DNA of 64,000 bases. Origin: an uncultured Scytonema sp. (lineage in GTDB: Bacteria > Cyanobacteriota > Cyanobacteriia > Cyanobacteriales > Nostocaceae). Of this stretch, positions 1-19,783 are shown in pieces; within the stretch, counting starts at the first letter, position 1; each line of letters begins with the position of its first letter. The stretch covers positions 19,066 through 83,065 of the forward strand of contig CALMVQ010000110.1 of assembly GCA_937873135.1 (NCBI GenBank). Reading direction: 5' to 3'. The position numbers and the translations under genes are program-made. Under the pieces are notes generated by a model. The model was not told where the DNA came from. It searched no databases and worked only from the letters and a program-made list of their open reading frames with translations.

Positions 1-3000
1 TCAGGAATGGGGACTAGCGTAGGGGCGAACGGCTGTTCGCCCTTATCGGGAGTGAAAACTTCTAATTCAAGAATTGTTGGTGTCGAGGGGCTAACAGATA
101 AATTCTGGCTGAAGCTTTCAGATAAAATCTCTGTGACCAAATTTGTTGCAGGTGACTCAAGGACAGGAGTCACTGGTGTAACAGAGATAGCGGAAAGTTT
201 TACAAATATATCATCTGTGGCTTCGATTGGCGAAGTGAGGGGCTGGTTGGTAACAGGTGGAGTAACTGATGTGTTGCTAAGTTTTACGGGCAAATCATTC
301 GTTGTCTCTGCGACAAAATTTCTTACTAGTTGGCTTTCTGTATGATGTGGAGTCGCCGATTTACCAGTAACGATCTGGGAATACTCTTGCTGTACGAGTT
401 GGAAAAAGTTTTTAGTGTATTCTACCTGGTGCTGGAGATATTGCTCGTGAATGCGTAAGGTTTCACTTTGTTGGGAGTGAAACTGCATCATACCGCGCTC
501 TAAGCTTTCCATCACAACTGGTTTGAGCTTAGTAGCTTCTGTTGAAGATTGGCTATTTGCCAACAAGGAATTCTGCTGCTGCATCAGTTGGAAAAAGGTT
601 TTGGCATATTCCATCTGATGGTTGAGATAATGTCCGTGAACTTGTAAATGCTCACTCTGACTCTGCTGAAACTGTGCTAGCAGGTATTCTAAGCTTTCTA
701 ACACGGCAAGTTTGTTTGGTTGCATACGAGGGGGAGTTTGTGAGGAGGACGCTAAGAATTTCTCGGTGTTGATCTGTGCTAATTTTAATCTGTCCTCTTC
801 TTCTGCGTCACCTTGTCCCTGCGTTCCCGTGTCCTCTACTTTCACTGCTTCCTCGACAATAGCCTTATGCCCATTATTGTTTGTAGCTGGTGGAGTGAGA
901 GTGGCAGTAATAATATCGACTCTGCCAGTTCCTCTTTCTTGATCCGCGCTCAAGGATGCAATGACAGTGTTCTCTCGAGAACTGCTTTGCTGTAATTTCA
1001 CTTGATGCCCATCCTGTAAAGATTGCTCAAAAGCGTTTCTCGTTTTCTCGGACACATAGTTAATGCCGTTTAAACGTACACTCAACGCCTTTTTCTCGGT
1101 TGTGGATATGGGTTGTGGCAGTTGGTAGGGATCTGGGTTGTTTAAAGACAAACCAGCTACACGCAACTGGACAACGGCTTCTCTTAAGGAACGATCGCTA
1201 TTCTTTTGAGCGCTGGGATTCAACGCAACAGTCATATGAGGGCGATCGCCTAAGATTTCTTTCACCAAGTTGGAGAGAATTTTCTTCGGACCAAATTCCA
1301 CAAAACAATAACCCCCGGCAGCGTAGATATTTTCTATCTCTTGCTTAAACAGCACCGAGTTGTTCAGGTGTGTTTCTAGGATTGTTTGAATTGCAGTTGA
1401 TTCTTTGGGATAAGGTTTGCCAGTGACGTTGGTGTAAACAGGTATTTTGGGGTTTGAGAACTGGACTGTTTTAATTGCTTGGGCAAAGGCTTTTTGAGCA
1501 AAGGCAATTAGGGGTGTGTGGAAAGCTGCGGACACGGGTAGCAAAACGGAGGTACATCCTTGGTTTTGCAACATTTGCTGCACTTTGGTGATTTCGGCTA
1601 CAGGCCCTGCTAACACAACTTGACGGGGAGAGTTGAGATTGGCGATCGTGACTTGAGGAAAATGCTTGAGAACTGCTTCTACCTTGCTAATGTCTTCTTT
1701 CACTGCCAGCATGGCACCAGCATCATAATCGGGATCTTGGGGGGCTGCCATTGCTTGTCCCCTAGCTTTTACCAAGTAGCAGTAATCTTCGTCACTCAAA
1801 ACGGAGGCTGCCCATAGTGCTGTGAGTTCTCCAAAGCTGTGCCCAGCGACAAAATCGGCATTGAAGCCTGCTTGTTGGAGGATTTTGTACATCCCGGCGC
1901 TTAACATCCCGATCGCGGGTTGAGCATATTCCGTGCGTTGCAATGCGGCAACTTGGGCATTTTTTTCTACCTCTTCAAACACGGGATGGGGAAAAACGAT
2001 CTCCGACACCGACTGCAAATTATCTTTGAGCAAAAGGCTATCCATCGAACCGTAAAGACGGCGCATGGTGGGAAAATTCATCACCAGTTCCCGACCCATT
2101 TCTACGTATTGAGAACCCTGCCCGGAGAATAATGCCACGACTTTTCCTGCGAGTTCCAAACCAGAGGCACGGTAGTAAATGCCTTGAGGATGTTCCCATG
2201 CAGGGGATGAGGCTTTGTTTTTCAGTAAATCAACACAGATTTGCAGAAATTTGCAAGCTTCAGAGCGTGACTCAACAACAAACCCAACTCTGGCGGCAGC
2301 TAGAGGAATTTCTTTTGATTTACACTCCTCGACTAGTTCTGCATAATGTTTGTCTCCAGTCTCAGATTGCAAATTCCCCAAAATTTCTTCACAGTTGCTC
2401 AACAACTGTGCGGGATTCTGAGCAAACAACAGCACTTCACAAGGAGTATTATGGATACGGTAGGGGAGGTTGTGTTCGGCTGTGTATTCTTCAAGAACGA
2501 CGTGATAATTTGTACCGCCAAAGCCAAAAGAACTGACACCCGCACGTCTTGGCGGTTCTCCTTCAGCCCGAATCCAAGGTCTGGTTTCAGTATTAAGATA
2601 GAAGGGGGAATTTTTGATGTTGAGTTTGGGGTTCGGTTCTGTGACGTTAATTGTGGGTGGCAATATCTTGTGATGTAACGCCAACGTCGTTTTGATTAGA
2701 CTCGCTGCACCCGCTGCTGCTTTTGTATGTCCAATCTGAGATTTCACGCTGCCCAAGGCAATGTGCTGTGTTTTAGCATTTTGTTCGGCAAAAAATTCTC
2801 TGATGGAAGCAAATTCTGTTGGGTCTCCAGCCATAGTGCCCGTGCCATGTGCTTCAATCAGACTTACACTTTCTGGTGGAAAACCTGCATCTTCATAAGC
2901 ACGTCTTAAAGCTTTGACTTGTCCTTCCAGTCGGGGAGCATAAATGCTTTTATATCGCCCATCACTAGAAGTGCCGATTCCTTTGATCACAGCATAAATT

Positions 3001-4010
3001 GTGTCGTTGTCTCTTTCCGCATCTTCTAGGCGTTTGAGCACAATCATGCCGATCCCTTCACCCAACATCATCCCATCCGACTTGGCATCGAAGGGTTTCA
3101 CCGTCTCGCTGGGAGTCATTGCTGGTGTTTTGCTGAAACACATATAACCCATGATCGTGTTGTCGGTGTCAACTCCACCAGTCAGCATCATGTCGGATCG
3201 GTATTCTACAAGTTCGCTGATTGCCATTTTTAAGGCACCGAACGAACTAGCACAAGCGGCATCAATAACGCAGTTGATCCCTCCCAAATTCAGGCGGTTG
3301 GCAATTCGTCCGGCGACGATGTTAGCTAACATACCTGGGAAAGCGTTCTCGTCCCACTTCACATATGCACTTTTAATTTTCTGGACAATTTTTTGTGTAT
3401 CTTCATCAGAAATACCACTGCTTTTGAGAACCTTTTCCCAAACGGGATATTCCAACCTGGAAGCAAGTGGCATACCGAGTTGCTTTGCCATTGCCACGCC
3501 TAAAATCACCCCAACAGTCTCGCGATTGAACTCGCGGGATGCACCATAGCCAGCATTTTCCATTGCCTCTTTCGCAATCACCAAACTCAATAGTTGCGAA
3601 ACGTCTGTGACTTCCAAGATGCTGGGAGGTATCCCAAATTCCATCGGATTAAAGTCAACATAGGGGATGAAACCACCTCTTTTAGAGTAGGTTTTTTCCT
3701 CTGGTGTTCTCGGATTCGGGTCGTAATAATCGTCTATATTCCAATGGGAGGATGGAACTTCAGTAATACAGTCAGTTTTATTAAGAATATTTTGCCAGTA
3801 CTCTTGCAAGTTTCTAGCTTGGGCAAATAAAGAAGCCATACCAACGATGGCTATCGGATTATGTTGCAGTTGTCTGTTAATTTTCTTGACTGATAGAGAT
3901 TTATCTGACATGTTTTTTTTCTCCTCAATAAACCCAATAACTGCCTTTTCAATCTCGTTGATCTGATTTTCTAGCTGCGCTAAGGCAGTATTAATTGAAT
4001 GAGCAGACAT
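1..4010 (-). CDS. HglE/PfaA-like type I polyketide synthase, KS-AT part (3' end outside window)
   Basis: Iterative type I PKS of the heterocyst-glycolipid/polyunsaturated fatty acid synthase family, expected to build a long acyl chain in the cytoplasm. My translation shows a ketosynthase with DAACASS (about residue 247, active Cys), EAHGTGT (about 384) and GHTKAAAG (about 427), then an acyltransferase with GHSFGE (about 722). The KS opening (IAIVGMASLF) and the KRGGFIP segment are typical of HglE/PfaA rather than modular PKS. After the AT is a long linker with two similar helical segments; ACP and KR domains would lie beyond base 1. The start at 4010 adds about 33 residues of coiled-coil character; an ATG at 3911 has a much better ribosome site (GAGGAG, 9 nt spacing) and may be the true start. 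The linker contains a repeat-derived insert near bases 19-45. Family assignment is firm; the product is inferred. Confidence 0.88.
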   Translation of the reverse strand, partial: MSAHSINTALAQLENQINEIEKAVIGFIEEKKNMSDKSLSVKKINRQLQHNPIAIVGMASLFAQARNLQEYWQNILNKTDCITEVPSSHWNIDDYYDPNPRTPEEKTYSKRGGFIPYVDFNPMEFGIPPSILEVTDVSQLLSLVIAKEAMENAGYGASREFNRETVGVILGVAMAKQLGMPLASRLEYPVWEKVLKSSGISDEDTQKIVQKIKSAYVKWDENAFPGMLANIVAGRIANRLNLGGINCVIDAACASSFGALKMAISELVEYRSDMMLTGGVDTDNTIMGYMCFSKTPAMTPSETVKPFDAKSDGMMLGEGIGMIVLKRLEDAERDNDTIYAVIKGIGTSSDGRYKSIYAPRLEGQVKALRRAYEDAGFPPESVSLIEAHGTGTMAGDPTEFASIREFFAEQNAKTQHIALGSVKSQIGHTKAAAGAASLIKTTLALHHKILPPTINVTEPNPKLNIKNSPFYLNTETRPWIRAEGEPPRRAGVSSFGFGGTNYHVVLEEYTAEHNLPYRIHNTPCEVLLFAQNPAQLLSNCEEILGNLQSETGDKHYAELVEECKSKEIPLAAARVGFVVESRSEACKFLQICVDLLKNKASSPAWEHPQGIYYRASGLELAGKVVALFSGQGSQYVEMGRELVMNFPTMRRLYGSMDSLLLKDNLQSVSEIVFPHPVFEEVEKNAQVAALQRTEYAQPAIGMLSAGMYKILQQAGFNADFVAGHSFGELTALWAASVLSDEDYCYLVKARGQAMAAPQDPDYDAGAMLAVKEDISKVEAVLKHFPQVTIANLNSPRQVVLAGPVAEITKVQQMLQNQGCTSVLLPVSAAFHTPLIAFAQKAFAQAIKTVQFSNPKIPVYTNVTGKPYPKESTAIQTILETHLNNSVLFKQEIENIYAAGGYCFVEFGPKKILSNLVKEILGDRPHMTVALNPSAQKNSDRSLREAVVQLRVAGLSLNNPDPYQLPQPISTTEKKALSVRLNGINYVSEKTRNAFEQSLQDGHQVKLQQSSSRENTVIASLSADQERGTGRVDIITATLTPPATNNNGHKAIVEEAVKVEDTGTQGQGDAEEEDRLKLAQINTEKFLASSSQTPPRMQPNKLAVLESLEYLLAQFQQSQSEHLQVHGHYLNHQMEYAKTFFQLMQQQNSLLANSQSSTEATKLKPVVMESLERGMMQFHSQQSETLRIHEQYLQHQVEYTKNFFQLVQQEYSQIVTGKSATPHHTESQLVRNFVAETTNDLPVKLSNTSVTPPVTNQPLTSPIEATDDIFVKLSAISVTPVTPVLESPATNLVTEILSESFSQNLSVSPSTPTILELEVFTPDKGEQPFAPTLVPIP
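3911..3926 (-). promoter_or_regulatory. Ribosome binding site for the internal ATG of the PKS
   Basis: On the minus strand GAGGAG is followed by nine bases, mostly A, and then ATG at 3911. The upstream ATG at 4010 has no comparable purine-rich site, so this site argues that translation of the PKS may begin at 3911. Confidence 0.5.
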
Positions 4011-4320: not shown

Positions 4321-4602
4321 TTATATAACACTCGATTCTTCTTGAGATGGTGGTAGGAGATCGATTACATTGTTGAAACTGGTGAAATAGTCTTGCAGTG
4401 CGATCGCAGCTTGACCTGTAAACTCAATCCATTGGTTATGGCACATATTTTGAGGAATTGTTTCTCCCTGGAGCAATGGAAACGTGGGAGTAGCTATGAG
4501 GACAGAAACGCTTTTTTCTCCAGAAGCAGTTTGATTATCAAGATTAACTGCGGCAACGTAGCTGCTGTTAATGACAACGTTCTGTATTTTTATAAATGCC
4601 AT
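4321..4602 (-). CDS. Small conserved-type hypothetical protein (93 aa)
   Basis: An unrecognised soluble protein of 93 residues starting MAFIKIQNVVINSSYVAAV. It has alternating hydrophobic beta-strand-like segments and an acidic tail, with no signal peptide or membrane helix. The opening resembles small beta-rich cyanobacterial proteins of unknown role. It lies about 310 bases upstream of the PKS on the same strand, so co-transcription is possible. A plus-strand ORF overlaps it but has poorer protein character. No function is proposed. Confidence 0.6.
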   Translation of the reverse strand: MAFIKIQNVVINSSYVAAVNLDNQTASGEKSVSVLIATPTFPLLQGETIPQNMCHNQWIEFTGQAAIALQDYFTSFNNVIDLLPPSQEESSVI

Positions 4603-5344: not shown

Positions 5345-6697
5345 TTAATTCTTTGAAGAGGTTTCTATTTTCTCTAGTTGTTTTCCTGCTTGCTTTTGCC
5401 ACCGGGTTATTCCGTAATTCACTCGAGCAGAATCATCATCGCCAATAAAACAAGTACGTCCCATCCGTTCGCAAGTCATGAGAATTTCGCCGTATCCCAC
5501 AAAAGGAGCAATGACAGAATCGTGCGGATTAGTATACAAATGTAGCAAATAATTGACGATAGCCTCAACTCCTTCAATGTGAGTTGGTGTCTGTGGTTTG
5601 GATATAGATTGGTGAGAAAAAATACCAACGTAGAGGTTCCCAAGAACTAATTCGTGTTGAAAGGGCATCTGCTGACGGCTGTAAAATTCATAAATATTCC
5701 CCTCAGCGCGTATTACCGCAACAACTCGAGCCTTATCCACTAAATAATTGTGATTCCATGTTGGTGAAACAGTGGCGATCGCTAAAGCTGCATTCTCAGG
5801 TAGTCTATTGATAAATTGTTGGCTAGAGGTATCTCCACAATAAACGAGATGGCGACCCAAAATTGATTGCTCCCCAACTTCTACAACAGACTCTAGCTCC
5901 GTAACTTTTTCCTGAGGCTGTTCAAGCTGAGGTTGTGCTTTCTTGCGGGATGACTTAGCTTCCCTTTCGGCTATAGCACTTTTGAGAGTTTCTAACTGTA
6001 ATTCTTCAAGCTTTAGCCGCCAAATTTCTACTTGTTTGGCTTGAATTTCTGCTTCTTCAAGATCCTCAGACGCTAAAGCTTGTTCTAAAGCTTTTTGGGC
6101 AAGTTCAGCTAAAGTACGTTCTTTGCTACCCGTTCGCGCAACTTGGAGCAGCTTTGTTTTGTTTTTGGCGAGCGGTGTTCCTTCGATCATCTGTTGAATT
6201 TTTGGGGCAATATCTCTAGCAATCTGCTTTTCAAGCTGCATACTTCGTTCGCTATACCCGTGTTCTCTGGCGAGATCTGCAGTTGTCTTGAGTGGTGGTG
6301 AAATGATTTCACCACCACGGCTATGTTGATTATCTCCGGCTTTAGCTCTGAGTCCTAATCGTTCGAGGATGCGATCGCGTTCTCGAAAAAGTTGTCCTCT
6401 TTCTAGATGATCCAACTCACTCCGAATGAAATTCTCGTCTATTTCCGCTAGACGAGCTTGGTCATCATCATCATAAGTGATAATATTGCATTCAATCTCT
6501 TCGAGTCCGAGTCGCTGACAAGCTGTCAAACGGTGCAGTCCAGCAATCAAGTTCAGCTTCTGATCTACTGTGATCGGGTTCAATAGACCATTCAGTTTGA
6601 TTGATTCTTTTAACTCTTCTACTTTCTCGTTCTTGATCGCTCGACGGTTCAGACTATTAAATTTGATTTTGTGTATGGACACTGGCACTGTAGGCAT
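5345..6697 (-). CDS. ParB-like nuclease/DNA-binding domain fused to a degenerate DNA methyltransferase domain
   Basis: 450 residues. The N-terminus is a ParB/Sulfiredoxin-type domain: a 'PI' strand (LLNPITVD, about residue 38) and the GLHRLTACQRLG box (about 53-64), followed by a helix-turn-helix-like region (TTADLAREHGYSERS, about 138). A charged coiled coil (about 180-265) leads to a C-terminal domain shaped like an N4/N6 DNA methyltransferase: a CGD...FINRLPENA segment and PFVGYGE...CERMGRTCFIGDD, which corresponds to the PFxGxGT SAM-binding motif. The catalytic (D/N/S)PP(Y/W) position reads VSPTWNH, so methylation activity looks lost. ParB-methylase fusions are common in phages and plasmids; a regulatory DNA-binding role is possible. 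It is divergent from the DevB gene, with about 1 kb between them. Confidence 0.8.
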   Translation of the reverse strand: MPTVPVSIHKIKFNSLNRRAIKNEKVEELKESIKLNGLLNPITVDQKLNLIAGLHRLTACQRLGLEEIECNIITYDDDDQARLAEIDENFIRSELDHLERGQLFRERDRILERLGLRAKAGDNQHSRGGEIISPPLKTTADLAREHGYSERSMQLEKQIARDIAPKIQQMIEGTPLAKNKTKLLQVARTGSKERTLAELAQKALEQALASEDLEEAEIQAKQVEIWRLKLEELQLETLKSAIAEREAKSSRKKAQPQLEQPQEKVTELESVVEVGEQSILGRHLVYCGDTSSQQFINRLPENAALAIATVSPTWNHNYLVDKARVVAVIRAEGNIYEFYSRQQMPFQHELVLGNLYVGIFSHQSISKPQTPTHIEGVEAIVNYLLHLYTNPHDSVIAPFVGYGEILMTCERMGRTCFIGDDDSARVNYGITRWQKQAGKQLEKIETSSKN

Positions 6698-7745: not shown

Positions 7746-8948
7746 ATGGCAGCAGACAAGGAAAGCCAGTTATACAAAAAACCCTCTTACGGGTGGCGAA
7801 TAATGTTGGCAGCTTTCATCGCTTTAATGACTGGATTGATATCTATCTACAGTCTTTCTCGATACCTGTCTCATGTTCAGACACCACCACCAGTAAAAGC
7901 TCCAAAGGCTGCGATCAAGAGAGTCGCTGTGACTGCTTTAGGACGCATACAGCCTCAAGGTGAAGTGACTAAGTTGTTTCCTCCCAGCTCACTATCAGGT
8001 GTCCGAGTTCAAAAACTACTGGTGAAGGAAGGAGATCCGATTCGAGTAGGGGAAGTCGTGGCATGGCTTGAAGGTTATGCTCGCAGTCAGGCAGCATTGC
8101 AACAAGCTGTGGATAAAGTTCAAATTTCTCAAACCCGCTTGGCGCAGGTGAAAGCTGGAGCGAAAACAGGAGATATCAATGCTCAGAAGGCAGCGATTAC
8201 CCGTTTGGAAGCTCAACTGCAAGGAGATGTTGCCTCGCAGCAAGCAACAATCGCCCGGTTACAAACTGAGTTAGATAATGCTCAAACCGAGAACAATCGA
8301 TATCAGCAGATCTACAAGGAAGGTGGTATTTCAGCTTCCACAGCAGATACTAAGCGTTTGCAGATGAGGACTGTAGAACAACAGATCACAGAAGCCAAAG
8401 CCAGCCTTAACCGGACTATCAACACTACTAACAATCAGATCCAACAAGAAAAAGCAAAACTGGTGAGTCTTCAAGAGATACGTCCTGTGGATATCCAGTT
8501 TGCAGAAGCCGATCTCAAGAGTGCGCTCACTGCTGTCAATCAGGCGAAAGCAGACTATGATTTAACGACTCTCAGATCTCCCATAAATGGAAAAGTATTG
8601 AAAGTACATACCAAAACTGGAGAGGTAAACACCAGTGAAGGGATTATTGATATAGGTAAAACATCTCAAATGATGGTAATGGCAGAAGTTTACCAAACCG
8701 ATATTAGTAAAGTACATGTAGGTCAAAAAGCTACCATTACCAGTACTGCTTTTCCAGGAAAAATAGCAGGAACTGTTACCAAAATTGGTTTGCAAGTTGA
8801 CAGACAAAATATTTTAAGTGTTAATCCCACAGCAGAAACAGACGGCAGAATCGTTCAGGTAAAAATTCGTATTGACAAACCCGCAGACAGTCGGCAGGTT
8901 GCAAATCTAACCAACCTACAGGTAGATGTTGCCATTCATGTACAGTAA
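7746..8948 (+). CDS. devB: DevB-family ABC exporter membrane fusion (HlyD-like) protein
   Basis: 400 residues. One N-terminal membrane helix (about 18-40, AAFIALMTGLISIYSLS) is followed by a periplasmic adaptor: lipoyl/barrel strands (VRVQKLLVKEGDPI, about 88), a long alpha-helical coiled coil rich in Gln and Ala (about 115-255) and a return lipoyl segment (LRSPINGKVLKV, about 277) with a C-terminal beta-barrel. This is the layout of DevB/HgdB, the adaptor that links a DevAC inner-membrane transporter to TolC and exports heterocyst glycolipids. It is followed 64 bases later by the DevC-like permease in the same direction. DevB versus HgdB cannot be told apart by eye. The start ATG has an AGGA about 8 bases upstream. 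Confidence 0.85.
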   Translation: MAADKESQLYKKPSYGWRIMLAAFIALMTGLISIYSLSRYLSHVQTPPPVKAPKAAIKRVAVTALGRIQPQGEVTKLFPPSSLSGVRVQKLLVKEGDPIRVGEVVAWLEGYARSQAALQQAVDKVQISQTRLAQVKAGAKTGDINAQKAAITRLEAQLQGDVASQQATIARLQTELDNAQTENNRYQQIYKEGGISASTADTKRLQMRTVEQQITEAKASLNRTINTTNNQIQQEKAKLVSLQEIRPVDIQFAEADLKSALTAVNQAKADYDLTTLRSPINGKVLKVHTKTGEVNTSEGIIDIGKTSQMMVMAEVYQTDISKVHVGQKATITSTAFPGKIAGTVTKIGLQVDRQNILSVNPTAETDGRIVQVKIRIDKPADSRQVANLTNLQVDVAIHVQ

Positions 8949-8966
8949 GAAAGAGTCAGGAGTCTT

Positions 8967-8987
8967 CTGTCTCCTGTCTTCTGTCTT
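8967..8987. repeat. Heptamer tandem repeat (CTGTCTY, three copies)
   Basis: Three tandem heptamers (CTGTCTC, CTGTCTT, CTGTCTT) lie in the 64-base gap between the DevB and DevC genes. This is the short tandem repeat class typical of heterocystous cyanobacteria. Confidence 0.7.
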
Positions 8988-9012
8988 TAACACATTCTTA
9001 AAATCTTGAATC

Positions 9013-10191
9013 ATGGCTGTTAAAATTCCTTTAGCGTGGCTACAACTCGTCCGATACAAAATTCGGTCTTTAGTAGCTATAGCTGGCATTTCTTTCATCG
9101 TTATTCTAACTTTTATGCAACTTGGTTTCCAAGATGCTCTTTATTCAAGTGCAACTGCGGTACATCGTAACCTTCTTGGAGATATATTTCTAGTAAGCTC
9201 TCAATATAAATCTCTGACAGCCATTCAAAGCTTTTCCGAGACTCGTTTATACCAAGCATTAGGGTTTGACGGTGTAGATTCCGTTAGCCCCGTTTATATG
9301 GGATTTGCTAAATTAAAGAATCCTGATAATGGGGAAAAATACTCAATATATGTTATAGGATTTCAACCCGGAAAGCCTATTATGAATCTACCCGAAGTTG
9401 AGCAAAACATAGATAAAATTAAAATTCCAGATATCATACTTTATGATCGCAATTCTCGTCCAGAATTTGGTGATATTGCTTTCAAATTTGAGCATGAAAA
9501 AACTGAACCAATAATTGAGATATTCCCCTTTAATTCTTTAACAGGCTATCGAGTCAGAGTTGGTGGTTTGTTTAGCTTAGGTGCTTCTTTTGGAGTCGAT
9601 GGGAATTTAATTGCCAGTGACTCAACTTTTTTCAGAATCTTTCCCAATACTCGACCTCTTGACATGATAGACATCGGTGCAATCACTCTCAAGCCCGGTG
9701 TCGATCCGCAAAAGATTGTGGAAACTTTGCGGCAGAGCTTACCGAATGATGTTCTCATTTTTACCCATGAAGGTTTTATAAATTTTGAAAAACAATACTG
9801 GGCAACCAGAACTCCTATCGGTTTTATATTAAATCTCATGCTGTCGATGGCTGCTGTTGTCGGTGTCGTCATTGTGTATCAAATTCTTTACAGTAATATT
9901 TCTACTCAATTGGTTGCTTACGCTACTTTAAAAGCCATAGGTTACGCCAATAATTATTTATTAAATGTAGTCTTTCAACAAGCTTTTATTTTAGCAGTAT
10001 TTAGTTATATCCCTGGATTTATGATTTCTTGGTGGTTATCTGATATTGCGATGAAAGCTACGAGGCTACCAATCATGATGACTGTCCACAATACAGTCTT
10101 AGTCATAGTTTCAACAATTTTGATGTGTATGACTTCCGGTGCCTTTGCGATCAATAAGCTCCGTTCCACAGACCCAGCCGATATTTTTTAA
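9013..10191 (+). CDS. devC: DevC-family ABC transporter permease
   Basis: 392 residues with the MacB/FtsX-type topology: one N-terminal helix (about 17-40, SLVAIAGISFIVILTFMQLG), a large periplasmic domain (about 45-270) and three C-terminal helices (about 275-305, 320-345 and 355-375). The C-terminus RSTDPADIF is characteristic of DevC. With DevB and a DevA ATPase it would form a glycolipid exporter. No ATPase follows: the next gene is an epimerase, so the ATP-binding subunit must come from elsewhere. Length fits DevC (about 385 aa). Confidence 0.88.
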   Translation: MAVKIPLAWLQLVRYKIRSLVAIAGISFIVILTFMQLGFQDALYSSATAVHRNLLGDIFLVSSQYKSLTAIQSFSETRLYQALGFDGVDSVSPVYMGFAKLKNPDNGEKYSIYVIGFQPGKPIMNLPEVEQNIDKIKIPDIILYDRNSRPEFGDIAFKFEHEKTEPIIEIFPFNSLTGYRVRVGGLFSLGASFGVDGNLIASDSTFFRIFPNTRPLDMIDIGAITLKPGVDPQKIVETLRQSLPNDVLIFTHEGFINFEKQYWATRTPIGFILNLMLSMAAVVGVVIVYQILYSNISTQLVAYATLKAIGYANNYLLNVVFQQAFILAVFSYIPGFMISWWLSDIAMKATRLPIMMTVHNTVLVIVSTILMCMTSGAFAINKLRSTDPADIF

Positions 10192-10380
10192 AAAATGCTG
10201 GTTGTTAGTAGTTAATTGTTGATTGTAAGTATTTAGTAGTTACTCCTAACAAGAGTGTAAGATAACCTATCTCCTTTATCTTCTTTCTTGGCTTTCTAGG
10301 AGCAGGAGCAGTTTTTTAGAGCCGTATTCATTTCTGACGGGAAGGGAGTAGTTGTTAAAAAAACTATTCATAAGTCCTAA

Positions 10381-10435
10381 CTACTAACCATTAGTCATTA
10401 GCTACTAACCACTAGCCACTAACCACTAACCAACT
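10381..10435. repeat. Imperfect heptamer repeat tract (ACTAACC type)
   Basis: Degenerate tandem copies of ACTAACC/ACTAGCC/ATTAGTC end just before the epimerase start codon. The tract forms the last part of a 247-base gap after DevC. It belongs to the STRR class and leaves no standard ribosome site directly upstream of ATG 10439. Confidence 0.65.
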
Positions 10436-10438
10436 ATT

Positions 10439-11440
10439 ATGCTCAAAAACAAAACTATCCTCATCACAGAAATTGGTGGATTTATCGGAATGCGAGCGGC
10501 TGAGCTTGCTGTAGCTCAGGGAATGAAAGTTTGTGGACTGCAAAGTTCTTCTGATAAGACGAGAAAAGCACAAAACTTGGGAGTTAAGGTAATTACTGGT
10601 AGTGTTACCGATCCGGCGATCGCCCAAGAGGCATGCACTGGAGTAGACATCGTTTTGCATACGGCAGAAGTTGCCAAAGAAGGTGGTTCCATCGACCAGT
10701 TTCGTGACATCAATGTTGGCGGAACCATTAATATGGCTAAAGCTGCCAAGAACGCAGGTGTCAAAACCTTCGTTCATATCTCAAGTGTTTTAGTATACGG
10801 CTTCAACTATCCTGATCGCGTCACGGAAGAAGCACCACTCGCGAACGAAAAGAACCCTTACTGTCAAAGCAAAATAGAAGCAGAAAAAGCACTTTTAGAA
10901 CTGAATTCTCCACCAGATTTTGGGATCACTATTATTAGACCTGGAGACGTTTACGGACCTGGAAGTATTCCCTGGATAGTCCGACCGCTTCTATTGATGC
11001 GTCAAAAATTATTTGCATACGCCAATGAAGGACGGGGAGTCATCAACCATGTGTACGTTGACAACTTGATCGATGCCATCTTTCTCGCTATTGAGAAAGA
11101 AACATACGGAGAAATCTTTAACGTCACCGATGGACAAGAAACTTCTTGGAAAGAGTATTTTGTGCATTTAGCTGATATTGCCGGATTACCTGCACCTTTT
11201 TCCATGCCCAAAGATGAACTCAAATTGTTTCTGCAATTGCGTTATCAAGGACAGAAACTTTTCCGCAAACAAGGAGATCTTCTGCCAGAAGTCGTAGATT
11301 TTATGACTCGTCCTTACGCTTATTCAATTACCAAAGCACAGAACGTATTAAGTTACGAACCAACAGTCGATCTTAAAGAAGGAATGCGACGCACGCAAGA
11401 ATGGGTTCAGAAAACCGATCTCCAAAAATTAATGCCATAG
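10439..11440 (+). CDS. NAD(P)-dependent epimerase/dehydratase family protein
   Basis: 333 residues, extended short-chain dehydrogenase fold. The nucleotide-binding turn reads TEIGGFIG (residues 10-17), where the family normally has TGxxGFIG, so the first Gly is Glu. The conserved HISSVLVYG strand (about 112-120) and active-site YCQSK (Tyr about 141) are present, as is the RPGDVYGPG stretch. The C-terminal half resembles 3-beta-hydroxysteroid dehydrogenase/sugar epimerase proteins. Its position between an exporter and glycosyltransferases suggests that it modifies the sugar or the acyl chain of the exported lipid; substrate unknown. Confidence 0.82.
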   Translation: MLKNKTILITEIGGFIGMRAAELAVAQGMKVCGLQSSSDKTRKAQNLGVKVITGSVTDPAIAQEACTGVDIVLHTAEVAKEGGSIDQFRDINVGGTINMAKAAKNAGVKTFVHISSVLVYGFNYPDRVTEEAPLANEKNPYCQSKIEAEKALLELNSPPDFGITIIRPGDVYGPGSIPWIVRPLLLMRQKLFAYANEGRGVINHVYVDNLIDAIFLAIEKETYGEIFNVTDGQETSWKEYFVHLADIAGLPAPFSMPKDELKLFLQLRYQGQKLFRKQGDLLPEVVDFMTRPYAYSITKAQNVLSYEPTVDLKEGMRRTQEWVQKTDLQKLMP

Positions 11441-11514
11441 TCGAGAGCGTTTAAATTGCACACTGACAAATGACAGGTTTTCATTAGTCCTTTGTGGTCA
11501 ATAACATCGTGTTC

Positions 11515-11632
11515 GGTTAATTGTTGATGGTTAATGGTTCATTGCAATTAACAATCAACTATTAACAATTAACGAACAACGTAATTATCCGAACATAATA
11601 GAACTAATGACAAATGACTAATGACCAATGAT
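11515..11632. repeat. AT-rich heptamer and inverted repeats between epimerase and glycosyltransferase
   Basis: The gap holds GTTAATTGTTGATGGTTAATGG and its partial inverse (CAATTAACAATCAACTATTAAC), which could pair into a hairpin. It then has degenerate heptamers (AATGACA, AATGACT, AATGACC) before the glycosyltransferase gene. No gene was recognised here. Confidence 0.5.
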
Positions 11633-11679
11633 AGTCTTAAGACTTTTTCTGCGCAAATCCTAAAATCCTAACACCACTT

Positions 11680-12693
11680 ATGAGCTATAAACAGCCACGA
11701 TTAAGTATCGGACTGCCTGTATATAATGGCGAGAAATTTATCAAAGAAGCCATAGATTCGATTTTGGTTCAAACCTTTGAAGATTTCGAGCTAATTATCT
11801 CAGATAATGCATCAACAGACAATACAGAGGAAATTTGTAGAGCATACACTACTCAAGACCAACGCATCCGTTACTACCGTAATGAAACGAATATCGGTTG
11901 CGCCTGTAACTTTAATCGTGTCTTTGAATTATCTTCAGGTGAGTACTTTAAGTGGGTAGCTCATGACGATTTACACGCTCCAGATTTTATCAGGAAGTGT
12001 ATTGAGGTACTTGACCAAAACCCTGAGGTGATTTTGTGCCACTCTCAGGTGTATTTCATTGATGAAAACGGCAAATTCTTACAGAACTACGATATCAACC
12101 TAAAAACCAATTCAACCAAACCACATGAACGTTTTCACGATCTTCTAACTAAGCATCTGTGCTATCAATGTTATGGGGTCATTCGTTCCAGCGTCCTTAA
12201 AATGACACCGCCTATGGGTGGTTACGGTGTAGCAGACGGAATCTTTTTGTTAAGACTCGGTCTCCTCGGTCAGTTTTATGAAATCCCCGAATACCTATTC
12301 TTTGCCAGAAGTCATCAGCAACACTCATTGAGTATGTTCTTTCCAAATTACTTGTCGTTTACGAGCAACAATCCAAAATACTCATTAAGTATGTTGCCGG
12401 ATTTCTATTCCTATGCTGTGTGGTTTGATTCATCACAAGAAGGCAAAATTTTATTTCCACATTGGCGAATATTTTGGGAGTATTTGCGCTCCGTTCAGAT
12501 GGGTTCACTAAATTGGTATGAACGGATGCGTTGCTACATAAGTATAATACAGCAACTCAAAGGTACAGAGTATCTTTTGATGAAAGATTTGCTTGTCGCT
12601 GCTCAAATGTTCTACAAACGTTTGCAGCAAAAATCAATCAAAAAACAGGTTCAAACTCATACCACAAGTCCAATTACAGCAATTTTCAGGTAA
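11680..12693 (+). CDS. Family 2 glycosyltransferase (GT-A fold)
   Basis: 337 residues. The N-terminal GT2 core is clear: LSIGLPVYNGEKFI (about 8-21), SILVQTFEDFELIISDNAS (about 27-45) with the nucleotide-contact Asp, and KWVAHDDL (about 90-97) carrying the DxD-equivalent metal-binding motif. The C-terminal half has no membrane helix and should define acceptor binding. The enzyme likely transfers a sugar from a nucleotide donor at the cytoplasmic membrane. It is co-directional with DevBC and the epimerase, consistent with glycosylation of the exported lipid. Confidence 0.85.
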   Translation: MSYKQPRLSIGLPVYNGEKFIKEAIDSILVQTFEDFELIISDNASTDNTEEICRAYTTQDQRIRYYRNETNIGCACNFNRVFELSSGEYFKWVAHDDLHAPDFIRKCIEVLDQNPEVILCHSQVYFIDENGKFLQNYDINLKTNSTKPHERFHDLLTKHLCYQCYGVIRSSVLKMTPPMGGYGVADGIFLLRLGLLGQFYEIPEYLFFARSHQQHSLSMFFPNYLSFTSNNPKYSLSMLPDFYSYAVWFDSSQEGKILFPHWRIFWEYLRSVQMGSLNWYERMRCYISIIQQLKGTEYLLMKDLLVAAQMFYKRLQQKSIKKQVQTHTTSPITAIFR

Positions 12694-12749
12694 AGTCTGC
12701 GGAAGAGAAGTTTCTAAGAGCGCGAGCTTTACGTAAATAGACCACAGTC

Positions 12750-12779
12750 GTAGGGGCGAGGAAAGGCAAACGCCCTTAC
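12750..12779. repeat. Palindromic GTAGGGGCG...CGCCCTTAC repeat
   Basis: An inverted repeat of the GTAGGGGCGAA...CGCCC(C/T)TAC family. It lies in the 282-base gap between the glycosyltransferase and the DUF2141-type gene. Related copies are inside the PKS gene (19-45) and inside an NRPS gene (42328-42354). Confidence 0.6.
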
Positions 12780-12975
12780 AAACGGTGTGGTTCATAGAGA
12801 GTGAAAACCGCTGTAAGACAGCTTTCAATACTCTTCCCATTAGACTCGATCCCCATCATCTCCTGGGTGAGCAATGCGTAGCTGAGATCGAAATCTGTCT
12901 TGATTGAGCATTGCCACTCTACTCTCAAATTTCTCTCAAACTAAACTCAAATCCATTGTTGATAACGGCAAAATC

Positions 12976-13443
12976 ATGCTTAGAATATCTAAACTCAGTA
13001 CTTTTTTGTTTGCTACTATTGCAAGCATGAGCTTCGTAAAAACAGTGCAAGCGCAGCCAACTGAAACACTGACTGTCATAGTAGACGGAATAAAGCATCA
13101 AAAAGGTCAGGTTTGCTTAAGAGTTTTCTCTAATGAAAAAGGATTTCCACAGGGTGATAGTGGTGGAGTCCAAAGTGGCTGTAGTCAAATAAAAGGAACT
13201 ACACTCACCAAGCAGTTCTATGGCTTGAAGCCAGGAACTTACGCTGTCGGTATAGTTGACGATCAGAACGGAGATCACAAACTAAACTCAAACCTTTTCG
13301 GTATTCCAGAAGAAGGTTTTGGTGTTTCCAAAAATCCAACCATATCGATCGCAACAGGTTCACCAAAATTTAGCCAATCTAGTTTTGTAGTCAACAAAAA
13401 CACCACCATCAAGATTCATATGAAATATTCGCTCGACAAATAA
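12976..13443 (+). CDS. Secreted DUF2141-type protein
   Basis: About 155 residues from ATG 12976; the longer frame from TTG 12904 is less likely because the signal peptide begins at 12976. It has a Sec-type signal: basic MLRISK, a hydrophobic stretch (FLFATIASMSFV) and a cleavage site after VQA. The mature part is beta-rich with GQVCLRVFSNEKGFP, KQFYGLKPGTYAVGIVDDQNGDHKLN and GIPEEGFGVSKNP, the pattern of DUF2141. Such proteins are exported small beta-sandwiches of unknown role. Its place between two glycosyltransferases suggests a periplasmic part in envelope or glycolipid assembly, which is inference. Confidence 0.8.
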   Translation: MLRISKLSTFLFATIASMSFVKTVQAQPTETLTVIVDGIKHQKGQVCLRVFSNEKGFPQGDSGGVQSGCSQIKGTTLTKQFYGLKPGTYAVGIVDDQNGDHKLNSNLFGIPEEGFGVSKNPTISIATGSPKFSQSSFVVNKNTTIKIHMKYSLDK

Positions 13444-13449
13444 ATCTTA

Positions 13450-13489
13450 GTTTGTAGTTGCGCTTTAGCGCTAAAGCGCAACTACAAAC
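13450..13489. repeat. Perfect 40-bp palindrome
   Basis: Two 20-base arms with no loop: GTTTGTAGTTGCGCTTTAGC (13450-13469) and its exact reverse complement (13470-13489). It lies 7 bases after the DUF2141-type stop codon. It could act as a terminator hairpin but has no T tract. It looks like an interspersed palindromic repeat. Confidence 0.8.
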
Positions 13490-13540
13490 AGTCAGATTTT
13501 ACATTTCATCACATAACTTTGTTTTTTACTGGAGACCCTA

Positions 13541-14713
13541 ATGAAAGAATTAGCAATATTGCTGTCTCTCGTTTTGCTAATTTGGTGGGCTACTCAGGTA
13601 TTTCTCTCACTGCGATTTTTTTTGTACCTGCGATCGCACCACCAAGATACATTACCAGATAATCAGCTACCCAAAACTGCGGTCATTGTTTACCTGCGTG
13701 GAACCGATCCCCTTTTGTCGAAATGTTTGCGATCGCTGTTAAATCAAAACTACCCACAGTACGATTTAAAGCTCGTCATTGACAACGAGCAAGATCCGGC
13801 TTGGAACATTGTCACAGAGACACTTTCTCAGGAAACAGCACAGAACGTGCAAGTTAGTCCTCTGCGGATAGCAAGTCCTAATTGTAGTCTCAAATGCAGT
13901 TCCCTAGTGCAAGCTGTTTCCGAACTCGACGATTCTTACAAAGTGGTTGCTTCAGTAGATGCTGATATGATCGTCCATTCTAATTGGCTGCGCGAACTTG
14001 TCAGCCCTCTGGCCAATCCCAAAGTTGGAGCGACAACAGGGAACTGCTGGTATGTACCGACTGGTAAGTCTTTAGGATCTTTGGTACGTTACTCGTGGAA
14101 TATCTACGCAGTTGTACAGATGTACACGCATCGGATTCCTTGGGGTGGTGCTTTGGCGATAAAAACAAAACTGATTCACCAAACAGAACTGCTTGATAAG
14201 TGGGGACAAGCCTGTGACGAAGATACGATGATTTACAGTGTTTTGGCAAAACATGGTAAGCAGGTTGTATTTGTACCTTCTCTCATGACTCTCAATCGTG
14301 AAGAGTGCCAATTATCTAGTTTCCAAAGTTTGTTGAAGCGACAACTTCTTTCTTCTCGACTTTACCATCCTCAATGGTGGGCGATTGTTGCTGAGTCGAT
14401 TTTAAGCGTGCTGCTTCCCAATCTGATGTTGGTGTTATTTGTAGCAGCATTGTGTACGAAACAATGGGATGCAGCAGCTATCTTCTTTAACAGCTTCGGG
14501 GCTTATATGCAGGCATTGCTTTTTCTGGCGATCGGTCTAGAGAAAAGCGTACAGCACGTCCTGCGCCAGCACCATCAGCCATTGACAAAATTATCGCCTG
14601 TGACAACGATGAAAATGTCAATATCATTTCCTCTAACACAGTGGATTTACGGACTGGCCATGATATCGTCTTTAGGAATGACAAAAGTCAAGTCCCTCAG
14701 AGCTAATCATTAA
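13541..14713 (+). CDS. Membrane-bound glycosyltransferase, family 2/21 (ceramide-glucosyltransferase-like)
   Basis: 390 residues. An N-terminal membrane helix (about 5-28) precedes a GT2 catalytic domain: AVIVYLRGTDPLLSKCLRSLLNQNYP, VDADMIV (about 142, DxD-type), CDEDTMIY (about 226, catalytic Asp) and LLKRQLLSSRLYHPQWW (about 265), the position of the Q/RxxRW motif of processive or lipid-acceptor enzymes. C-terminal hydrophobic segments (about 285-310, 320-340 and 365-380) anchor it. The layout resembles ceramide glucosyltransferase/HpnI, which act on lipid acceptors. This supports a glycolipid role with the neighbouring DevBC exporter. Confidence 0.82.
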   Translation: MKELAILLSLVLLIWWATQVFLSLRFFLYLRSHHQDTLPDNQLPKTAVIVYLRGTDPLLSKCLRSLLNQNYPQYDLKLVIDNEQDPAWNIVTETLSQETAQNVQVSPLRIASPNCSLKCSSLVQAVSELDDSYKVVASVDADMIVHSNWLRELVSPLANPKVGATTGNCWYVPTGKSLGSLVRYSWNIYAVVQMYTHRIPWGGALAIKTKLIHQTELLDKWGQACDEDTMIYSVLAKHGKQVVFVPSLMTLNREECQLSSFQSLLKRQLLSSRLYHPQWWAIVAESILSVLLPNLMLVLFVAALCTKQWDAAAIFFNSFGAYMQALLFLAIGLEKSVQHVLRQHHQPLTKLSPVTTMKMSISFPLTQWIYGLAMISSLGMTKVKSLRANH

Positions 14714-15084
14714 GACTGACGTGGAGATTTTGTAGGGTGGACAATGCGTAGTATATTCAGTTTCATTCTGAGATGGTTCGGCATTGCCCACCTAGCCCAA
14801 TACAGTTCATTACCTATCAATGGCGGCGAAGCGCGAAGCTCGCCGTTCGCGCTTGCGTCTGGTGACTGGAGTTGGCATCGCCCTTTCAAAATCATTGGTG
14901 AATATATTTTTCTAGTATATTCCAATTTGATTGAGAAGCTCTAACTACAAAGTATTGATTGGATCCTATTATTAGGATATAAGATTGTTTGATTTTGTAA
15001 ATATTATGTAATACTATATCCAGATCGTAACTTAGGCAGAGCAAACAGTTCTTTCACTTTCCACTCCAAAGGAATCATTTTCCT
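14714..15084. other. Gap with interrupted palindromic repeats
   Basis: It contains the two halves of a GTAGGGTGGRCAATGC/GCATTGCCCACC-type palindrome (about 14731-14800) separated by other sequence. A GC-rich stretch (14822-14862, GGCGGCGAAGCGCGAAGC) is typical of cyanobacterial interspersed repeats. No protein-like ORF was seen, so short ORFs crossing these repeats are not reported. Confidence 0.45.
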
Positions 15085-16188: not shown

Positions 16189-16190
16189 CT

Positions 16191-16682
16191 ATGAGCATAA
16201 ATAAGCATAAACCGCACATTCTTGTGTTGCCCGAAGACGATGCTAATCGCCAGATGGCGAACGGATTTATTCTTGATAGAAACCTCAATAGTCGCGCTAT
16301 TCAAGTCCTACCAGAGGCTCGTGGTTGGAAAAACGTTGTGGAGAAATTTACGAATGATTATGCCTCTACAATGCGACAATATCCACACAGAATGATTGCT
16401 TTACTGATCGATTTTGATGAGGATGAAAATAGATTGAGTTATGTAAAGCATCAAATTCCAAATGATTTAAAAGATAGAGTATTTGTTCTTGGTGTCTTAT
16501 CTGAACCAGAGAAATTAAGGACAGATATTAACAAGAATTTTGAAAAAATCGGAGAAGCCCTTGGAAAAGATTGCTCCGATAACACGAATGAATTATGGGG
16601 GCACGATCTTCTCAAACACAACAAAACCGAGTTAGATCGTATGATTTTATCTATCAAACCATTTCTGTTTAATTTGAAATAA
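16191..16682 (+). CDS. Small TOPRIM-like partner of the AAA ATPase
   Basis: 163 residues, starting 2 bases after the ATPase stop, so the two are almost certainly co-translated. The beginning HILVLPEDDANRQMANGF (about 8-25) resembles the glutamate strand of TOPRIM folds, and MIALLIDFDEDENRL (about 65-79) looks like the DxD strand. The C-terminus DLLKHNKTELDRMILSIKPFLFNL is helical. I infer a divergent TOPRIM nuclease or an effector regulated by the ATPase. It is shorter than AriB-type (DUF4435) partners. The function is not established. Confidence 0.65.
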   Translation: MSINKHKPHILVLPEDDANRQMANGFILDRNLNSRAIQVLPEARGWKNVVEKFTNDYASTMRQYPHRMIALLIDFDEDENRLSYVKHQIPNDLKDRVFVLGVLSEPEKLRTDINKNFEKIGEALGKDCSDNTNELWGHDLLKHNKTELDRMILSIKPFLFNLK

Positions 16683-16690
16683 TGTTGGTG

Positions 16691-16715
16691 AATGGGCATC
16701 AGTTGGCTGCCCATT
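16691..16715 (+). terminator. Possible terminator hairpin after the ATPase pair
   Basis: AATGGGCA and TGCCCATT form a perfect 8-bp stem around a 9-base loop, 8 bases after the stop codon. No long T run follows, so termination is only possible. Confidence 0.35.
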
Positions 16716-16757
16716 TATCTCCCCATCCGTAGATGCTCTTTTTCATCATATTTTTGG

Positions 16758-16890: not shown

Positions 16891-17013
16891 TTTCCTACTA
16901 GGGGTGATCGCTCTTCGGAGAAAAACTTTTTGTCCCAACTCAAGCGTAAGTACAAGGTATCAAAAACAATATTAACGCTACGGAAAAGCATTTTAGCTTA
17001 ACATTTCACCAAT

Positions 17014-18558
17014 CTATCCCAATCTTTCCAACAAATGCTCCCCGACACGCAAAGCATTTGCCATAATAGTAAGTGATGGATTTACCGCACTACTAGATGG
17101 GAAAAAACTACCATCAATAACGTAAAGATTATCAACATCATGTGTACGACAATTGATATCAAGTACCGAAGTTTTAGGGTCTTCACCAAAACGACAAGTT
17201 CCACACTGATGAGCCACCTCTTGCAAGCCCATTTTTGAGGTAATAAATGATGAAAACGAGCTAAAGCGATAGGGTCGCCCCCTAATGGACTTCAACACTT
17301 CATTCCAACGCTCAATTAAGCGCTCAAATGCCTCTTGATTATTATTTGTATAGTCAAGAATAATTTTCTCACCGTTGATCTGTACACGATTATTGAAGTC
17401 GGGTAAATCTTCAGTGATTAACAACCAAGAAAGGGAATGATTTGCCACAAATTCAGATATTTTGTTAGGCATAAAAGGTGGTGCATGAGCGGCGACTTTA
17501 TCTTTATGGATATTGCCGAGTAATTGTACGCTTCCCATTGGGTAAGCAAAATCTTTTTCACCCCAATAAAAATCATTGACAGCAAGTGTCTTTTGAAAAA
17601 CTGTTGGATTGGGTTTTGTGCTTAAAGCCATAACTACGGCAAACTTATGTGCCATGTAATTACGCCCAACAAGATGAGAACTATTAGCCAATCCATTTGG
17701 GTGTTGGTCGTTGGCAGATTTCAGTAACAAGACTGCTGAATTAACTGCACCACAAGCAACAACCACAATATCTCCAGTAAACATCTGAAGCTTACCTGCA
17801 ATTTCTGCTTCCACTCCAGTCACTTGCCGACCCGATGCACTGGTATGCAAACGTGTGACTTTTGCATTGGTAATTAAAGTCAGATTGGGATTGACAAGTG
17901 CTGGACGTACACCGTTAATGTCAGCATCAGCTTTAGCATTGATAAAACACGGGAAGCCATCACAAGTATCGCAACGAATACAAGCACTTAAAGAACGATT
18001 GACTTCATTAAGTTTGACGGCAAGCGGTAGATAAAATGGATGCAAGCCTTGATACTTTAGGGCATAATGGATGTTTTGAATGTAGGGTTCGTGGCTGACT
18101 GCTGGAAAGGGATAGTCTTCACCAATCTGCGGTTCAGTAGGATCGAGACCTCGCTGACCATGTACTTCATAAAGTTTCTCAGCTTGGGCATAGTAGGGAG
18201 CAAAATCCTGATACTTTAATGGCCATTCCGGGGAAATGCCACCTTTATGAATAACTTTTTCAAAGTCCTGCTGGCGAAACCTAAACAAGGCACCACCATA
18301 AAATTTAGTGTTGCCGCCAACATAATAGTGCATGACTGGTCGTATGGCTTTGCCGTTTTTGTCATACCATACATCACTATTTCGATAGCGTTCTTTTCGC
18401 AGAACCTGCTGAGAATCCCAATTCGCTTTTTCTCTAGGTAGAAAAGTTCCTCGTTCTAGAACTAAAATTTTCTTACCGCTTGATGCCAATCGATTAAGCA
18501 GAGTTCCACCACCGGCACCTGTACCAATGATGATGACATCGTAATGACCATCAGCCAT
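17014..18558 (-). CDS. GMC-family FAD-dependent oxidoreductase
   Basis: About 514 residues from ATG 18558 (MADGHYDVIIIG); a TTG at 18600 would add 14 residues but is less plausible. The FAD-binding GTGAGGGTLLNRLASSGKKILVLERG is at about 12-37. GGNTKFYGGALFRFR, the interior VVACGAVNSAVLLLKS and the C-terminal HQCGTCRFG and SAVNPSLTIMANALRVGEHL match glucose-methanol-choline oxidoreductases; the H of HQCGT and the N of VNPS are the usual catalytic pair. A Cys-rich CIRCDTCDGFPCF segment (about 205) is present. It would oxidise an alcohol, perhaps on the lipid chain. It faces the glycosyltransferase block. Confidence 0.88.
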   Translation of the reverse strand: MADGHYDVIIIGTGAGGGTLLNRLASSGKKILVLERGTFLPREKANWDSQQVLRKERYRNSDVWYDKNGKAIRPVMHYYVGGNTKFYGGALFRFRQQDFEKVIHKGGISPEWPLKYQDFAPYYAQAEKLYEVHGQRGLDPTEPQIGEDYPFPAVSHEPYIQNIHYALKYQGLHPFYLPLAVKLNEVNRSLSACIRCDTCDGFPCFINAKADADINGVRPALVNPNLTLITNAKVTRLHTSASGRQVTGVEAEIAGKLQMFTGDIVVVACGAVNSAVLLLKSANDQHPNGLANSSHLVGRNYMAHKFAVVMALSTKPNPTVFQKTLAVNDFYWGEKDFAYPMGSVQLLGNIHKDKVAAHAPPFMPNKISEFVANHSLSWLLITEDLPDFNNRVQINGEKIILDYTNNNQEAFERLIERWNEVLKSIRGRPYRFSSFSSFITSKMGLQEVAHQCGTCRFGEDPKTSVLDINCRTHDVDNLYVIDGSFFPSSSAVNPSLTIMANALRVGEHLLERLG

Positions 18559-18600
18559 TTTTGTATGTTCTTTTGAGTTAATTGTGGATTTACAGAACAA

Positions 18601-18949: not shown

Positions 18950-19777
18950 CTATTTTATATTTTCCTCTTGCATTTTATTTTCAGCACAAGTTTTGTTTAT
19001 TTGTGTTAATCCAATCATGCGATAAATTCTATCTCCGAATTCCGGAAAAAGTTGTATATTTGAGAACAGTAATCGTGTTAAAAGTCCATCAAGTACAACC
19101 TCTCCCTGATTTTGCTGAATGGCCTGTAGGACTGCGATCGCCACATCTGTTGGTTCAGAAACACGCGCTAACTTGGGTGCTGGTAAGCCAAATTTCAGAA
19201 ACATTCCTGCTTTTGTATATCCCGGACAAATCACTGAAACCCCTACATTAGTATTAGCTAATTCCTGCCGCATTGCATCTGTCCACATAATCATACTCGC
19301 TTTACTTGCTGAGTAGATGCTGTTGTAAGGCGCTCCTTTTTTACCTGAGCCAGATGAAATATTCACAATGTGACCGCTATCGCGATCTAACATACTCGGT
19401 AAGACTAAACGAGTTAACTCCATCCCCGCAATTAAATTCGTTGTCAATATCGACTGGATATCTTCTAGAGAGTAATTTTGAAAAGGTCGATATTTTTCTA
19501 TTGCAGCATTATTAATCAAAATATCGATAGGGCCTACAAGCTGATTAATTTGCTGTACGAGAGTTGATAATTCTTCCACTTTGTTGATGTCAAATGGAAG
19601 ACTTATTCCTCTACCACCAGCAGCTTCAATCTCAGCACATATGCTATCTAGCTTTTTCTGAGAACGAGAAACGCAAACTACAGTTGCTTGTTCTTTTGCA
19701 AATGTACGGGCAATAAAGACTCCAATACCACCTGATGCGCCCGTTAACAGCACCGTTTTACCTGCTATGTTTTTCAT
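18950..19777 (-). CDS. HetN-like short-chain dehydrogenase/ketoacyl reductase
   Basis: About 275 residues from ATG 19777 (MKNIAGKTVLLTG), chosen because AAGCGG lies 6 bases upstream; ATG 19783 is the alternative. Classical SDR motifs: TGASGGIG (about 12-19), NNAA (about 88), catalytic Ser in NISSGSGKKG and YSASK (about 157). The sequence from KTVLLTGAS and KEQATVVCVSRSQ to WTDAMRQEL and CPGY resembles HetN, the ketoacyl reductase encoded beside heterocyst glycolipid genes. The position of the HetN inhibitory pentapeptide RGSGR reads RDSGH, so a patterning role is unlikely. A reductive step on the acyl chain is the likely job. Confidence 0.82.
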   Translation of the reverse strand: MKNIAGKTVLLTGASGGIGVFIARTFAKEQATVVCVSRSQKKLDSICAEIEAAGGRGISLPFDINKVEELSTLVQQINQLVGPIDILINNAAIEKYRPFQNYSLEDIQSILTTNLIAGMELTRLVLPSMLDRDSGHIVNISSGSGKKGAPYNSIYSASKASMIMWTDAMRQELANTNVGVSVICPGYTKAGMFLKFGLPAPKLARVSEPTDVAIAVLQAIQQNQGEVVLDGLLTRLLFSNIQLFPEFGDRIYRMIGLTQINKTCAENKMQEENIK

Positions 19778-19783
19778 AATCAT

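Follow-up and report, generated by a model that had tools for sequence, protein, structure and literature searches.

A DevA-less hgdB-hgdC pair in the main hgl island of a Rhizonema-like cyanobacterium: probable single loss of its ATPase and likely coupling to the DevA of another exporter

How is an ATP-binding cassette (ABC) exporter driven when its gene cluster encodes a membrane fusion protein and a permease, and no ATPase? This question is raised by a stretch of 64,000 nucleotides (the window) from an uncultured Scytonema sp., positions 19066-83065 of contig CALMVQ010000110.1 (C110) in assembly GCA_937873135.1, a 9.6 Mb genome in 383 contigs. A preliminary description of the window had reported devB- and devC-type genes (7746-10191) followed by an epimerase and glycosyltransferases with no devA, and the coordinates and profile matches agree with it. 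The pair is hgdBC of the main heterocyst glycolipid (hgl) island; the hgdB-hgdC-hgdA genes are known to contribute to the lipid envelope that keeps oxygen out of nitrogen-fixing cells. On balance we think it likely that it lost its own ATPase once and is coupled in trans to the DevA of the canonical devBCA exporter. According to the available part of a 2018 study, the ATPase driving HgdBC was then left open (PMC6161253). The genes in question are:

7746..8948, + strand: hgdB, DevB-type membrane fusion protein (TIGR02971 heterocyst_DevB, 365.6 bits, cut-off 129)
9013..10191, + strand: hgdC, DevC/MacB-type permease without an ATPase of its own (TIGR01185 devC, 456.2 bits, cut-off 290.35)
9814..9945, + strand: hgdC codons 268-311, covering the second transmembrane helix (TM2), hinge and coupling helix, with changed residues 273, 280, 281, 299 and 302
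10439..11440, + strand: hgdA, NAD-dependent epimerase of 333 aa (PF01370), in devA's place relative to the sister sets

In Anabaena 7120, no ATPase gene accompanies hgdBC in its cluster, HgdB is reported to bind HgdD, and DevA or a different ATPase is considered able to serve (PMC6161253); hgdA, a 333-aa epimerase, takes devA's place (PMC6692557). The locus is regarded as orthologous to hgdB-hgdC-hgdA because its gene order and 333-aa epimerase match that published cluster, and orthology to All5346/All5347 was drawn from gene order, tree and published description. Within the main hgl island of a Rhizonema-like heterocystous cyanobacterium it makes up the hgdB-hgdC-hgdA section, an ordinary locus of a known kind. 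The HgdC encoded here matches that of Rhizonema sp. NSF051 (L042) at 100% identity, Rhizonema being a lichen partner. No ABC-exporter ATPase comes after hgdC; the ATPase at 15085-16188 is of the AAA_21/AbiEii kind. The earlier assertion that the exporter must borrow an ATPase holds insofar as none adjoins HgdBC and borrowing is the best reading; as an idea, it had already been proposed (PMC6161253).

A search with HgdC returned 82 relatives, of which 80 loci were kept. In all 38 heterocystous-type loci (L042-L077, L118, L119), an hgdC-type gene is followed by the same epimerase, with no devA (the epimerase is in two pieces in L070), and the arrangement is therefore not due to chance. Ten other loci have a DevC within the HgdC clade (L078-L084, L086, L087, L101), and each carries devA downstream on the same strand within ~1 kb; L084 comes from the same metagenome-assembled genome as the DevA-less L056. 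Scanning the 38 loci and the window for ABC motifs revealed three cases: in L049 a full ABC exporter, ~7 kb away from hgdC; in L056 a partial DevA belonging to another type, where the contig ends; and in L047 nothing more than a short frame bearing a signature-like motif. Six DevA-bearing HgdC copies of heterocystous genomes adjoin HglE-type polyketide synthase (PKS) genes and look like parts of hgl-like islands. Across a family sample of 70 genomes, an HgdC match of at least 65% identity was present in 68; G037 has the DevA-bearing kind only, and G061 has none at this threshold.

The trees indicate how this difference arose. In a careful tree of 65 rows, the DevA-less HgdC sequences form one clade (26 rows, support 100/100), whose sister clade (19 rows, 93/79) has DevA downstream in 19 of 19 cases and comes from hgl-like islands and non-heterocystous relatives. 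In a wider tree of 168 DevC rows, HgdC splits into 44 DevA-less and 16 DevA-bearing rows. The preliminary description had called for such a DevC phylogeny, and the window HgdC falls in the DevA-less HgdC clade, apart from canonical DevC. The DevA tree mirrors that of HgdC, with an hgd-type group of 16 rows (Shimodaira-Hasegawa-like approximate likelihood-ratio test 93) apart from a canonical group of 28 rows (98); none of the seven unpaired DevA rows falls within the hgd-type group. Because there is one DevA-less clade, a DevA-bearing sister, a mirrored DevA tree and no hgd-type unpaired DevA, the ATPase of HgdBC was probably lost a single time, on the branch that led to the heterocyst hgl island. 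Trees and gene order together argue that HgdBC once had its own ATPase, of which no moved descendant is found among the DevA rows read. A single change of DevA state holds for the 65 chosen rows, where all outgroup rows have DevA; with more rows the DevA label changes 16 or 17 times, because other DevC genes are also without an adjacent DevA, some lying at contig ends or having DevA farther off. Second DevA-less HgdC copies, with no hgdA adjoining, occur in three genomes (L329, L333, L334); L329 and L333 pair together (98/93) as the first branch of the DevA-less clade, a position with weak support (84/56).

Where, then, could HgdBC find an ATPase? The canonical devBCA is complete on contig C196, and its DevA is the sole full-length DevA over the family cut-off in the genome, which by elimination makes it the leading candidate partner. 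This is also the outcome of the search for an unlinked devA that the preliminary description had proposed. That description had seen a contrary case in a complete devBCA elsewhere pairing only with its own parts, and the set on C196 supplies half of that case, the complete set. A third set, on C169 (24705-26788, L180), is broken: a devB start, covering model positions 1-57 of 327, is fused in frame to devC, and the devA match ends at model position 188 of 220. It adjoins genes that are transposase-like by eye. Further along, C169:32407-40958 holds HglE-like PKS pieces with stop codons, the HglE-like match there (49% identity) itself holding a stop; the devBCA-type set and the PKS pieces are perhaps a second lipid-type cluster in decay.

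The same inventory was taken in 16 same-family genomes (G000-G015), with 12 DevA rows below 221 bits and two DevC rows below 150 bits (146.8 and 143.3) left out of the pairing tables. Each of the 16 carries one hgdC adjoining hgdA without DevA, as well as a canonical DevC (644-713 bits); the latter has DevA as its neighbour in 15 genomes and lies at a contig end in G002. An unpaired DevA over the cut-off occurs in three genomes: G007, G008, where a devB adjoins it, and G013, where it lies at a contig edge. No unpaired devA that might serve HgdBC is conserved across these genomes, 13 of the 16 having none over the cut-off, and none of the seven unpaired DevA rows is hgd-type.

HgdC itself bears marks of the change. 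Base columns were those in which each of three comparison groups is 85% conserved or more; of 77 such columns, 19 lie in 265-325, and the four that are changed in DevA-less HgdC (273, 280, 281 and 299, the signature columns) are all inside that region. This clustering has a p of 0.002 to 0.03 depending on the threshold, for a region picked after the columns were seen, and looser thresholds bring in columns outside it (223 at 0.75; 27, 126 and 223 at 0.7). The substitutions in DevA-less HgdC are F273L, F281S/A, H299Q and E302A, in TM2 and around the coupling helix. Position 302 is A in 44/44 DevA-less rows and E in 30/30 canonical, 57/59 other and 11/16 sister rows (A in the remaining 5). In a structure model of HgdC (pLDDT, the predicted local distance difference test, 82), residues 273-281 belong to the TM2 helix (268-297), and residue 302 to the helix that follows it (300-309), ahead of TM3. 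In MacB, the helix of the TM2-TM3 loop serves as the major coupling helix, pushing on TM2 once ATP has brought the ATPases together (PMC8277102). FtsX requires hydrophobic residues in its coupling helix, and modelling put a glutamate in contact with FtsE (PMC7468199). By analogy, we infer that position 302 of HgdC may be akin to that glutamate.

The signature was checked in 46 fresh sequences, comprising 39 hgdA-linked without DevA, 3 with DevA and 4 with neither. The hgdA-linked ones have L273, S/A281 and A302 in 39/39 and Q299 in 38/39 (one H, in L288), and the three DevA-bearing ones have F, G, F and H at 273, 280, 281 and 299. The four with neither (L291 at a contig edge; L329, L333, L334) have Q299 and A302 in 4/4, L273 in 3/4 and S281 in 2/4. 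As the early-branching L329 and L333 carry Q299 and A302 yet retain F281, there is a hint that the hinge and helix changes came first. The coupling-helix core, 303-311, has a mean identity of 0.985 vs 0.767 over HgdC, ranking 6 of 384 nine-column windows. For HgdB, whose rows are readable devB genes beside devC (43/44 DevA-less, 10/16 DevA-bearing, 21/30 canonical), two of 68 base columns (262, 271) qualify as signature. As a separate observation, L188, L190, L201, L203 and L205 have devB-devC pairs for which the 8.5-10 kb read show neither DevA nor another ABC-type ATPase frame, with the usual H299/E302-type motif kept in the printed rows L188 and L203 and in L177, L179 and L171, which stand for L190, L201 and L205; DevA-less devB-devC pairs may be commoner than the hgd case alone.

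We propose that HgdB, HgdC and a TolC-type outer membrane protein would form a MacAB-like pump acting on the heterocyst glycolipid layer, as known from Anabaena, the host for which heterocyst expression and an effect on this layer are on record. Ancestral HgdBC would have had its own DevA-type ATPase, of the kind that hgl-like islands and non-heterocystous relatives still carry next to hgdC; judging by gene order and trees, this ATPase was probably lost once toward the heterocyst island, where hgdA is now in its place. HgdC appears to have kept a near-invariant coupling-helix core and altered TM2 and its surroundings, a combination which suggests that coupling to an ATPase has most likely been retained. 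Canonical devBCA would supply the likeliest partner, its DevA acting in trans. Whether the change was adaptive is a more tentative matter: it is possible that, on heterocyst uptake, the exporter dropped its own ATPase and re-tuned TM2 and the coupling helix through the four substitutions for a separate exporter's DevA. If true, one ATPase would drive two permeases acting in succession, tying lipid export to layer finishing. The DevA-bearing sister sets and the residue signature assign the ATPase loss to the branch from which the heterocyst hgl island descends, and make a shared ATPase, another ATPase and ATP-free action experimentally separable. Searches of an open-licence library brought up no paper dealing with the loss of the HgdBC ATPase or with coupling-helix changes in HgdC, judging by titles and abstract starts; new here are the single-loss history and the coupling-region signature, the arrangement and the idea of borrowing DevA having been published (PMC6161253, PMC6692557).

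Several points weigh against a DevA shared in trans. The partnership of HgdC with DevA is a candidate one, drawn from trees, gene order and sequence conservation. The many sequences share one ancestry and branch, and are thus not independent tests, speaking to consistency only. Two of the substitutions, E302A and H299Q, could make coupling weaker whichever ATPase is involved. That HgdC converged on canonical DevC was considered and set aside, as only positions 183, 287 and 311 fit, too few to argue from. The assembly is 98% complete, and a DevA-type gene is possibly absent from it. The genome also has 113 ABC-ATPase matches to the DevA model (E <= 0.001), so another ATPase is possible, and C60 holds a DevA-like ATPase that scores 261.7 bits, under the cut-off, has an unbroken frame and adjoins a weak DevC-like permease. 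HgdBC might accordingly be served by a DevA paralogue or a different ABC ATPase, and some relatives do have unpaired or extra DevA; we nevertheless consider this unlikely, given that the canonical DevA stands alone at full length over the cut-off, that the C169 copy is curtailed, and that 13 of the 16 same-family genomes have no conserved unpaired DevA.

Similarly improbable, in our view, is that HgdBC works independently of ATP hydrolysis, joining the TolC-type protein as a scaffold or a factor for lipid handling. Such a role would fit the missing neighbouring ATPase gene, the residues altered around the coupling helix after ATPase loss and, in the part of the study available, an Anabaena hgdB mutant that still makes a layer, aberrant in structure and composition (PMC6161253). 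However, few stretches of HgdC are as conserved as the coupling-helix core, which has not decayed, and this near-invariance beside the changes favours a borrowed ATPase over an ATP-free role. The remaining idea, that of an additional, alternative glycolipid island equipped with a DevBC exporter of its own, which the preliminary description had put forward and with which the separate devBCA on C196 would agree, is very hard to sustain and was rejected, since the window PKS is the only stop-free HglE-type match above 35% identity in the genome (the C169 match has its stop codon), the gene content equals that of the published main hgl island with hgdB-hgdC-hgdA, and canonical devBCA is known outside the hgl island. 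Its assignment of the set to heterocyst-type glycolipid synthesis and export is borne out by the HglE-type PKS, hgdB-hgdC-hgdA, the glycosyltransferases and the hgl island content.

The other features around hgdBC are:

3..4010, - strand: HglE-type PKS, N-terminal 1336 codons with KS and AT domains (100% match at C110:19071-23075)
4321..4602, - strand: small conserved neighbour of 93 aa between hglE and hgdB, matched in most heterocystous-type loci reaching that far
5345..6697, - strand: ParB_N-domain protein (PF02195), a conserved neighbour matched in relatives
11680..12693, + strand: GT2 glycosyltransferase (PF00535), found in part of the relatives
12904..13443, + strand: DUF2141 protein (PF09912)
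13541..14713, + strand: HpnI-like GT2 glycosyltransferase (PF13641)
17014..18600, - strand: GMC oxidoreductase (PF05199/PF00732)
18950..19783, - strand: short-chain dehydrogenase (PF00106)
20988..22247, + strand: group-1 glycosyltransferase (PF00534), best candidate for hglT

The PKS extends beyond the window into upstream contig sequence, where it is broken by a run of N. Farther upstream lie KR-DH, double-KS, PfaD-like, acyl carrier protein-thioester reductase and phosphopantetheinyl transferase genes, a make-up typical of an hgl island. The reductase at 18950-19783, earlier called HetN-like, scores as a generic short-chain dehydrogenase. In the accessible parts of the sources, HglT (all5341) is catalogued as a group-1 glycosyltransferase (PMC4365693; also PMC2211374), and hglT is reportedly absent from the Richelia HH01 genome (PMC11804610). 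The glycosyltransferase at 20988-22247 is of the same type and has no counterpart in the Richelia HH01 locus (L069), which makes it the best hglT candidate. NtcA-type sites (GTAN8TAC) number 11 in the window vs 8.8 expected, with zero between 5259 and 31557 and hence none just upstream of hgdB.

Within the hgl island, the gene of an AAA_21/AbiLi-like ATPase is paired with one of 163 aa (15085-16682), and the two look like a mobile or defence insertion; the ATPase (15085-16188) resembles defence ATPases, and the stretch ~14790-17016 is absent from Rhizonema sp. NSF051 and present in PD38 (L043). At 23602-26903, a McrB-like AAA protein (by eye; PADLOC type II restriction profile) with two unnamed genes behind it is a possible restriction locus. 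Nonribosomal peptide synthetase genes with condensation and adenylation domains, their translations read by eye, span 27279-43066, broken up by sensor-kinase pieces. A large serine recombinase lies at 51757-53055; its best NCBIfam match is XisF, at 143.5 bits far under the cut-off of 375.

Compared with known systems, the window is closest to the Anabaena 7120 hgl cluster, in which DevB- and DevC-type genes likewise precede a 333-aa epimerase instead of devA (PMC6161253, PMC6692557); the window differs in its host and in the GT2 gene and ATPase pair between hgdA and the GMC, short-chain dehydrogenase and hglT-like genes. Hgl islands of 19 genes and smaller hgl-like islands have been described in PMC11804610, whose main text contains neither the word 'ATPase' nor 'devA'. 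The hgdBC-devA sets of hgl-like islands and non-heterocystous cyanobacteria share with the window the adjacency of hgdB and hgdC to HglE-type PKS genes, but have DevA downstream of hgdC and mostly H at position 299 (15/16 rows; 3/3 unused sequences). A compact second, hgl-like island is marked by sister-type hgdBC, no hgdA and, in the sets read, DevA downstream, whereas the window has an HgdC of the DevA-less clade with hgdA next to it. Canonical DevBCA likewise comprises a membrane fusion protein and a MacB-like permease matching the same NCBIfam models, yet it has its own DevA downstream, and its DevC and DevA each fall in clades separate from the hgd type. The permeases of MacAB-TolC, LolCDE and HrtBA (type VII ABC) have the fold of the HgdC model (Foldseek), with 12-17% sequence identity among the matches listed, and differ in that their ATPase is either fused, as in MacB, or encoded as a partner.

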